The notes under the pieces are model-generated. The model saw only the letters and a program-made list of their open reading frames with translations, ran no database searches and was not told the DNA's origin. Shown here piece by piece: positions 1,230 to 5,176 of a DNA stretch of 6,967 nucleotides. Positions within the stretch are counted from its first letter, which is position 1; every line of letters begins with the position of its first letter. The position numbers and the translations under genes are program-made. Origin of the DNA: Pseudomonadota bacterium (GTDB lineage Bacteria > CALINM01); NCBI GenBank assembly GCA_026415985.1, contig JAOAGA010000078.1:1-6967 (forward strand), in the 5' to 3' direction.

Positions 1230-2402
1230 CTATTCCTTTTTACCAGCGTATTCTTTTATAAGCTCCTGACCAATGACGTTTCTCTGTATCTGGTTTGTCC
1301 CTTCGTAAATCTGCAGTATTTTTGCGTCTCTCAACATCTTCTCAACGGGATACTCTTTCATATACCCATAGCCACCTAAAACCTGTATGGCGTTTAGTGC
1401 AACCTTTACCGCGGTATCGGCAGGGAATACTTTTGCCATTGCAGAGTATTTTGAAAAATCTTTACCACCCATATCAATATATTTAGCTACCTGATATACA
1501 AAAGCTCTTGAGACTTCAATCTCTGTTGCCATATCCGCTAAAATATGCTGAATTGCCTGAAAAGATATTATAGGCTTTCCAAACTGCTTTCTATCTCTGG
1601 CATAATCTACCGCAACATCTAAGGCAGACTGGGCAACGCCGACAGCCTGTGCCCCTATACCAGGTCTCGTCATATCAAAGGTTTTCATCGCAACGATAAA
1701 ACCGATCCCTTCTCTACCTCCTATTAGCTGATCCTTATGTATTTTACAATCCTGAAAGACAAGCTCTCTTGTGGCAGATGCCCTTATACCTAACTTATTC
1801 TCCTTTTTACCGAAAGAAAAGCCGGGGGTGCCTTTTTCTACTATGAAGGCCGATGCCCCTCTTGGTCCTTTTGCCTTATTTGTCATGGCTATTACTGTAT
1901 ATACATCTGCTTCACCACCATTTGTAATCCATTGTTTTGTTCCGTTCAATATGTAATAATCTCCGTCTTTAACAGCGGTTGTTTCTATCCCCCCTGCATC
2001 AGACCCCGCATTAGCTTCTGTCAGACCAAAGGCAGCAAGTTTCTTTCCTTTGGCAATATCGGGCAGGTATTTTTTCTTTTGTTCTTCTGTACCGTATAGG
2101 AGTATCGGATAGGAGCCTAAGCCACTGGCAGCAAAGCTAACTGAAACACCCAGGCATCCCCAGCTAAGCTCTTCAATGGCAAGACAGTTTTCAAAACTAC
2201 CGAAACCTAACCCACCGTATTCTTCGGGAATATACAATCCAAACAGACCGGTCTTAGCTATCTCATCTAATATCTCTTTCGGAAACTCGTTGTTTTCATC
2301 TAAATGTGCCCTGACTGGTACTATCTTTTCTTTTGCAATCTTTTTTGCTAAATTTTTAATATACTTCTGGTCCTCGTTAAGAAAAAAATCAAACAAAGCC
2401 AT
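1230..2402 (-). CDS. Acyl-CoA dehydrogenase, MCAD-like, inside the fab operon
   Basis: FAD flavoprotein of the acyl-CoA dehydrogenase family, which normally forms the trans-2 double bond of acyl-CoA and passes electrons to ETF. Counted from ATG 2402 it has 390 residues, the normal size. Visible are the family signature FGLTEANAGSDAG (125-137), KQWITNGG (156-163) at the flavin, RDRKQFGKP (269-277), and the C-terminal YPVEKMLRDAKILQIYEGT (351-369). Glu367 in YEGT is the expected catalytic base. Thr245 in DMTRP sits where isovaleryl- and long-chain enzymes carry theirs, so the pattern is that of the medium-chain (MCAD) or butyryl type. A TTG at 2417 is in frame, but the codons after it, AGG-AGG-AGA, are the ribosome binding site, so ATG 2402 is preferred. 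The gene lies between fabH and fabD, 32 bases after the fabH stop. Exact substrate, CoA or ACP form, and direction are unknown. Family is near certain, role is not. Confidence 0.93.
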   Translation of the reverse strand: MALFDFFLNEDQKYIKNLAKKIAKEKIVPVRAHLDENNEFPKEILDEIAKTGLFGLYIPEEYGGLGFGSFENCLAIEELSWGCLGVSVSFAASGLGSYPILLYGTEEQKKKYLPDIAKGKKLAAFGLTEANAGSDAGGIETTAVKDGDYYILNGTKQWITNGGEADVYTVIAMTNKAKGPRGASAFIVEKGTPGFSFGKKENKLGIRASATRELVFQDCKIHKDQLIGGREGIGFIVAMKTFDMTRPGIGAQAVGVAQSALDVAVDYARDRKQFGKPIISFQAIQHILADMATEIEVSRAFVYQVAKYIDMGGKDFSKYSAMAKVFPADTAVKVALNAIQVLGGYGYMKEYPVEKMLRDAKILQIYEGTNQIQRNVIGQELIKEYAGKKE

Positions 2403-2408
2403 TACTCT

Positions 2409-2415
2409 CCTCCTC
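2409..2415 (-). promoter_or_regulatory. Strong Shine-Dalgarno site of the acyl-CoA dehydrogenase gene
   Basis: Read on the minus strand, GAGGAGG is followed by 6 bases (AGAGTA) and then ATG at 2402. This is close to the ideal match and spacing for the 16S rRNA tail. It decides the start: beginning at the in-frame TTG 2417 would put the ribosome binding site inside the coding region and add the residues MRRRV. It is the best such site in the window and lies in the only sizeable gap within the fab operon. Confidence 0.9.
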
Positions 2416-4637: not shown

Positions 4638-5168
4638 TCACTCCTTATTTTTTAATTTTTTTAGCTCCTTTGCCAAAAAAGAGTACTCTGTCTCTTCGCT
4701 ACACTTACAGGTCTCTTCATTTAAATTGGTACCACATTTAGGACATATACCTTTACAGCCTGTTTTACAGAGAAGCTTATATGGTATTGAAAGCATAAGC
4801 TGTTCTACCGCCAGCTCTGTCAGGTCAATCTCATCACCTTCAAAATATGATAGTTCTGTTTCCTCATCTTCTAACAACTCTTCTTCTGATTCCTTTTTAG
4901 GCATAAGAATGTAATGGAATTTTTCTTTAAGCTTAAGAGAGGCATCGCATAAACACCTATCGCAGGAAAAGGAAAGTTCTGCTGAAAAATCTCCATATAC
5001 TTCAACATCTTCACCAACGCTTGTTAATTCCATATGAATAGAAAAGGGCTCAAGAAGTTTAGTGGAATTATTCGGCTCCTTTTCAAAAATTTCATTGACT
5101 AAAATGGTGGATTCCAGCCAGTCCCTATTAACTTTTCCCGCTCTGACGTCTTTTACATTAACTTTCAA
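4638..5168 (-). CDS. yceD: YceD/DUF177 family protein, cysteine-rich
   Basis: Member of the DUF177 (YceD) family, found next to rpmF in most bacteria. Family members have been linked to 23S rRNA accumulation or processing, but the molecular activity is not settled. From TTG 5168 it has 176 residues. A CDRCLC motif (69-74) is followed by a very acidic stretch (about 93-116) and a C-terminal cysteine cluster: Cys134, Cys138, Cys142, Cys145 (CKGICPKCGTNLN), Cys154 and Cys156. These nine cysteines suggest one or more zinc sites. No ATG fits the N-terminus. The in-frame TTG at 5174 is only 2 bases from the AGGGG ribosome binding site, while TTG 5168 is 8 bases away and gives (M)KVNVKDV, a more typical start for the family. 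It is the first gene of the operon behind the promoter at 5202-5229. Confidence 0.9.
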   Translation of the reverse strand: MKVNVKDVRAGKVNRDWLESTILVNEIFEKEPNNSTKLLEPFSIHMELTSVGEDVEVYGDFSAELSFSCDRCLCDASLKLKEKFHYILMPKKESEEELLEDEETELSYFEGDEIDLTELAVEQLMLSIPYKLLCKTGCKGICPKCGTNLNEETCKCSEETEYSFLAKELKKLKNKE

Positions 5169-5176
5169 ACACAAAT

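Follow-up and report, generated by a model that had tools for sequence, protein, structure and literature searches.

The 6,967-nucleotide stretch of DNA analysed here (the window) carries a gene for an acyl-CoA dehydrogenase (ACAD) family protein within an operon for fatty acid synthesis (fab). This arrangement is conserved in relatives of the organism and recurs in other phyla, and the genome from which the window derives also encodes an ETF. The last elongation step of bacterial fatty acids is served by four well-known enzyme types, FabI, FabK, FabL and FabV. We found none of these in the window genome, and genomes without any of them represent, to our knowledge, an open gap. We propose, with a probability of roughly three in four, that the ACAD is a type II enoyl-ACP reductase fed by NADH via ETF, both here and in many anaerobes. 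The use of ACP as the carrier, the reductive direction and the role of NADH as donor are components of this proposal that we infer.

A dehydrogenase family gene in the fab operon

The genes of the window all lie on the minus strand, in the order rseP-tsaB-DUF177-rpmF-plsX-fabH-ACAD-fabD-fabG (Table 1). The plsX and fabH genes overlap by 4 bp, and gaps of 32, 2 and 3 bp separate fabH from the ACAD gene, the ACAD gene from fabD, and fabD from fabG, respectively. The open reading frame, its domains and these gaps confirm a first-pass annotation of this DNA, which had described an intact ACAD gene, co-directional and nearly contiguous with fabH on one side and fabD on the other, but had not named the strand. 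We preferred the ATG at 2402 over a TTG at 2417 as the start of the ACAD frame, which ends with the stop codon at 1230, because a strong Shine-Dalgarno sequence precedes the former. The GC content of the gene (~0.41) matches that of its neighbours.

Table 1. Features of the window surrounding the ACAD gene
Feature	Position	Strand	Basis
Proposed enoyl-ACP reductase of the ACAD family, 390 aa	1230..2402	-	ORF, Pfam domains, orthologs in fab operons, Glu367
Shine-Dalgarno of the ACAD gene, gaggaggag (gaggaggagagtaATG), 4 bases 5' of ATG 2402	2407..2415	-	upstream sequence
fabG, 3-oxoacyl-ACP reductase, 5' part only (contig end)	1..267	-	ORF; complete gene in G001/G002
fabD, malonyl-CoA:ACP transacylase, 318 aa	271..1227	-	TIGR00128 above cut-off
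fabH, beta-ketoacyl-ACP synthase III, 326 aa	2435..3415	-	NCBIfam NF006829/TIGR00747 above cut-off
plsX, phosphate acyltransferase, 345 aa	3412..4449	-	TIGR00182 above cut-off
rpmF, ribosomal protein L32	4451..4633	-	TIGR01031 above cut-off
YceD/DUF177 protein	4638..5174	-	PF02620 above cut-off

Three Pfam domains, the N-terminal (PF02771, 120 bits), middle (PF02770, 99 bits) and C-terminal (PF00441, 179.5 bits), all score far above their gathering scores and place the protein in the acyl-CoA dehydrogenase family, and neither Pfam nor NCBIfam relates it to the FabI, FabK, FabL or FabV families. Its top NCBIfam model, with a score below the cut-off, is itself a reductase, the acryloyl-CoA reductase AcrC. 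Models for RedW, PigA and MbtN yield 266, 257 and 68 bits against cut-offs of 650, 500 and 700, so that the protein falls below all three. The best match among solved structures is 5ol2, and the near relatives include the butyryl-CoA dehydrogenases 5ol2 and 4l1f as well as MCAD.

The motif E367-G368-T369 places the catalytic glutamate at the MCAD position, followed by Gly-Thr, and the family glutamate is present in every aligned ACAD that has this column, in agreement with the earlier assignment of Glu367. The same annotation had read Thr245 as part of a medium-chain pattern with a preference for C8-C10 substrates. The threonine is indeed present, but members of the ortholog clade have S, T or A at this position, which therefore carries no chain-length information, and we rejected the predicted preference. 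At three other positions, Arg181, Lys199 and Lys200, a basic residue occurs in 75-79 of the 80 aligned clade and near-clade members but mostly not in paralogs or reference proteins, and these residues could be candidate ACP contacts.

Within the phylum, which was compared through three genomes of two genera, the fab operon with its ACAD gene is kept in all three: the window genome (G000; 1.57 Mb, 84% complete) and the relatives G001 and G002. ACAD identity across these genomes is 90-91%, versus 83-85% for FabH. The operon continues in G001 and G002 with fabG, acpP and fabF. The other ACAD of the window genome, encoded on contig 120, is 39% identical, adjoins a livF-type ABC gene and belongs to a different subfamily. 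Both G001 and G002 additionally carry a second fabH-like gene (51-52% identity to the window FabH) that directly adjoins a further ACAD gene (44%) in convergent orientation, at L006:472-2643 (contig C11 of G001) and L097 (C139:1969-4144 of G002).

Distribution of the linkage and of known enoyl-ACP reductases

Scanning GTDB genome contigs once, we obtained 80 relatives with 53-73% identity to the window ACAD and labelled their flanks by tblastn. Genes for fatty acid synthesis flank the ACAD gene at 41 of these 80 loci, one of which (L051) was counted on a FabG-like SDR alone. At 23 of the 41, etfB/etfA are present as well, and at 17 further loci ETF genes are the sole labelled neighbours. The linkage is thus not peculiar to the window genome; had it been, simple co-regulation would have been favoured by one of the criteria set in the first-pass annotation. 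It recurs in some ten phyla, including Desulfobacterota, Omnitrophota, Margulisbacteria, Planctomycetota and Nitrospirota, and in differing gene orders: plsX-fabH-ACAD-etfB-etfA-fabG-acpP-fabF in Desulfobulbaceae and Desulfofervidaceae, plsX-(fabH)-ACAD-fabD-fabG-acpP-fabF in the window and other Desulfobacterota, and fabG-acpP-fabF-ACAD-etfB-etfA in Omnitrophota, Firestonebacteria, Fermentibacterota and others. That the linkage recurs in different orders suggests functional maintenance of the association and not a single frozen operon. The ACAD gene lies directly after plsX, with no adjacent fabH, in several Desulfobacterota-type operons (L014, L015, L023, L025, L028, L137 and L140). An ACAD-FabF fusion, prompted by shared frames of 1172-1257 aa, was rejected, as the two genes are separate ORFs.

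All 44 fab-linked ACADs group within one clade of 75 (SH-aLRT 99) in a maximum-likelihood tree, which was built by a quick search and has some open forks as well as long branches. Paralogs from the same phylum and the solved Bcd enzymes (5ol2, 4l1f) fall outside this clade.

A query with E. coli FabI at E 1e-20 gave no match in 31 of 41 genomes, G000-G002 included. The sole clear FabI (46%) is that of Dictyobacter, whose ACAD falls outside the clade, and nine other genomes match at 29-37%. Seven of these nine (six Desulfobulbaceae-type genomes and one Acidobacteriota) have FabL above the NCBIfam cut-off. FabL and a fab-linked ACAD occur together in G015 (L152), G025 (L153), G014, G016, G019, G028 and G038, a pairing that would mean either two enoyl reductases or two roles. 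Among the carriers searched, FabV was found only in one Spirochaete. Given FabL or FabV beside the ACAD in such genomes, the ACAD is not the sole candidate everywhere. Desulfogranum has a further FabI-like SDR, encoded alongside FabG- and FabZ-like genes in a separate cluster. In the window genome and its two relatives, searches revealed neither FabL above the cut-off nor FabV.

No protein among the 41 genomes exceeds the cut-off of the FabK model TIGR03151, which is strict, in that only one of the seven control genomes with a match passes it. We therefore treated sub-threshold proteins as possible FabK and counted carriers with no such protein apart. A FabX/FabK-like match exists in 27 of the 41 genomes, and the FabK-like protein of some carriers scores 180-260 bits. 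In ten carriers (G003, G007, G012, G017, G023, G024 and G031-G034), searches yielded neither FabI nor FabV, no protein of the FabK/FabX type, and no FabL above the cut-off. The genomes are mostly MAGs; G017 is an Omnitrophota chromosome (CP070655) in one 1.14 Mb sequence, and it carries fabG-acpP-fabF-ACAD-etfB-etfA. In Margulisbacteria, G008 has fabH-ACAD besides a gene for a 319-aa FabK/NMO-family protein (L117:1408-2367; 199 bits to TIGR03151) located between fabG and fabF.

The sole TIGR03151 match in G000-G002 is a protein of ~360 aa that is a homolog of Helicobacter pylori FabX (2e-65 versus 4.5e-20 for FabK); the match spans the full length in G001, and the G000 copy is truncated at a contig end. 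The gene lies outside the fab operon in all three genomes (L108:3-824, L109:5468-6553 and L110:136-1221, respectively). It is of the decanoyl-ACP dehydrogenase/isomerase type, with a Cys-containing C-terminal part, and occurs here outside Campylobacterota. Matches alike in size and score are present in G004, G006, G018, G020-G022, G026 and G029, and FabX-sized matches also appear in Omnitrophota and Desulfofervidaceae. Judged by homology, the protein in the three genomes is a candidate enzyme for making unsaturated fatty acids anaerobically.

FabZ is present wherever it was sought, including the window genome, which has a single match of the FabA/FabZ type, and its relatives. With the known reductases missing, the pathway is complete except for the enoyl reductase. 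The complete set of such enzymes elsewhere in the genome that the earlier annotation had allowed for was not found in our searches for FabI, FabK, FabL and FabV, and the one unassigned oxidoreductase of the operon is the ACAD, often accompanied by ETF.

We also examined co-occurrence in 148 Desulfobacterota genomes that are at least 90% complete, using a joint ACAD and FabF query followed by a joint FabI and FabK query. Among the matches listed, a strong ACAD ortholog (at least 564 bits) is present in 65 of the 148 genomes, and its gene lies 1.1-4.5 kb from fabF in 50 of the 52 genomes with both. FabI (45-52% identity) appears, among the matches listed, in none of the 65 genomes with the ortholog versus 19 of the 83 others. 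This anti-correlation corresponds to a Fisher p of 7e-6, computed from the matches listed by a test that ignores shared ancestry. About 47 of the genomes show neither protein at these thresholds among the matches listed.

Electron supply and competing explanations

One ETF was found in the window genome; besides EtfB it comprises an EtfA whose N-terminus carries a ferredoxin domain. One ferredoxin-domain EtfA is likewise present in each of G001 and G002, the latter having further EtfA pieces. In these three genomes the ETF genes reside outside the fab operon, on another contig, whereas at many of the orthologous loci they adjoin the ACAD gene. The ETF of the window genome (L125:245-2676, contig C86) adjoins a methylmalonyl-CoA-epimerase-like gene. 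Its EtfA best matches CarE (2.5e-123), and its EtfB best matches 7koe, 6fah and 5ol2 (1e-67 to 1e-74) versus ~1e-30 for ordinary ETFs. By these similarities, both subunits belong with bifurcating ETFs (CarDE, 7koe, 5ol2, 4kpu, 7qh2) and not with ordinary ones. Two [4Fe-4S] motifs (CxxCxxCxxxC) are present in EtfA at 37 of 38 linked loci. NADH is the electron source of such bifurcating ETFs, and they function in the reduction of enoyl-CoA substrates, as with butyryl-CoA and caffeyl-CoA; fatty acid synthesis requires this same direction.

In the proposed reaction, trans-2-enoyl-ACP would be made by FabF/FabH, FabG and FabZ, while NADH would reduce the bifurcating-type ETF, composed of EtfB and the EtfA with its N-terminal two-cluster ferredoxin domain. 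Electrons would then pass from ETF to the FAD of the ACAD, and the reduced enzyme, with Glu367 as the acid/base, would saturate the enoyl chain on ACP, opposite to the direction of beta-oxidation. We consider more tentatively, as a possibility with the odds against it, that this step is electron-bifurcating, such that NADH oxidation by EtfAB-ACAD reduces both enoyl-ACP and, through the EtfA ferredoxin domain, ferredoxin.

The first-pass annotation had offered four interpretations, namely desaturation of acyl-ACP, ETF-linked enoyl reduction, control of the primer pool for FabH, and mere co-regulation of a beta-oxidation gene. Of these, the second is strongly favoured by the linkage of etfB-etfA to fab genes, the missing enoyl-ACP reductases and the FabI anti-correlation, and the other three have each lost ground.

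If the ACAD instead acted on acyl-ACP as a dehydrogenase, with a 2,3 double bond formed at C8-C10 serving as the branch point to unsaturated chains, an unrecognised enzyme would have to reduce the enoyl group. ACADs with carrier-bound substrates are known, and the RedW and PigA models do match, albeit below cut-off. The single dehydratase match in the genome also suits this idea, and FabL beside the ACAD in Desulfobulbaceae makes a second role conceivable there. However, FabX of H. pylori performs the desaturation job (PMC8626469), and a relative of it is encoded in all three genomes, separate from the operon, which makes an unsaturation role for the ACAD less likely. Desaturation would also leave an essential step unfilled in the ten carriers with no known enoyl reductase, where that role needs to be filled first. 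The linked loci encode a bifurcating ETF of the ferredoxin type, a kind that belongs to reductase systems, and Thr245 is not conserved in the clade. We regard this explanation as unlikely.

It is quite unlikely that the protein is an ordinary ACAD of fatty acid or branched-chain degradation that is co-transcribed with fab genes or sets the FabH primer pool, even though its family membership, the epimerase-like neighbour of its own ETF, and the thiolases of G000 (one) and G002 (three) would fit such a role. The PF00108 test is silent in those two genomes, but 30 of the 43 confirmed ACAD carriers yielded no thiolase (PF00108), among them G001, the chromosome G017 and those small Omnitrophota genomes that were searched, so in these 30 the ACAD cannot serve a beta-oxidation cycle and co-regulation with one fails as an explanation. 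A 44th genome (G065), whose ACAD is not explicitly listed, also yielded no thiolase. Furthermore, the linkage recurs after fabH, plsX or fabF in some ten phyla. The ACAD gene neighbours fabF or plsX just as frequently as fabH, which speaks against a function linked to FabH priming, and fabH is not adjacent at L014, L015, L023, L025 and L028.

Finally, FabX and FabK share a superfamily and FabX/FabK-like matches are widespread (27 of 41 genomes), and thus the FabX homolog of G000-G002 might reduce enoyl-ACP and leave the ACAD an auxiliary part, for example as a second, chain-length-specific reductase, but this is very unlikely given that the gene lies outside the fab operon, that its product matches FabX better than FabK, and that ten carriers have no such protein.

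Relation to known systems and implications

The proposed enoyl-ACP reductase resembles CarCDE (6fah) and Bcd-Etf (5ol2, 4l1f) in pairing an ACAD-fold flavoprotein that keeps the catalytic Glu with a bifurcating-type ETF, and its EtfA shares with CarE an N-terminal ferredoxin domain with two [4Fe-4S] clusters. It differs from these systems in that the ACAD gene is part of the core operon for making fatty acids, the substrate is proposed to be carried on ACP rather than CoA, and the protein forms a clade of its own, apart from 5ol2 and 4l1f. The reaction would be that of FabI, FabK, FabL and FabV, which the ACAD gene replaces in genomes without them. Nevertheless, the fold is unrelated, being an ACAD with FAD and ETF instead of an SDR with NAD(P)H or an FMN barrel.

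Other ACAD family members, the prolyl-PCP dehydrogenases RedW/PigA and the acyl-ACP dehydrogenase MbtN, also act on carrier-bound acyl groups. These enzymes oxidise, however, and do so in secondary metabolism, and the window protein is far below their cut-offs. Like H. pylori FabX, the ACAD is a flavoprotein with a (proposed) acyl-ACP substrate in fatty acid synthesis, but the two belong to different superfamilies.

We found no report of an ACAD acting as an enoyl-ACP reductase in the open-access literature, to which our search was confined. A fitness study of Desulfovibrio (PMC10102598) addresses an enoyl-ACP reductase that is missing from biotin synthesis, but does not discuss the ACAD gene.

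If our proposal is correct, these proteins would constitute a fifth class of enoyl-ACP reductase, a beta-oxidation-type enzyme run in reverse and driven by ETF, and many 'acyl-CoA dehydrogenase' annotations that are read as fat degradation would be corrected. We would also predict that membrane synthesis in anaerobes is tied to ferredoxin energetics. Should the step prove to be bifurcating, every round of elongation would recover energy that is wasted by FabI-type reduction.
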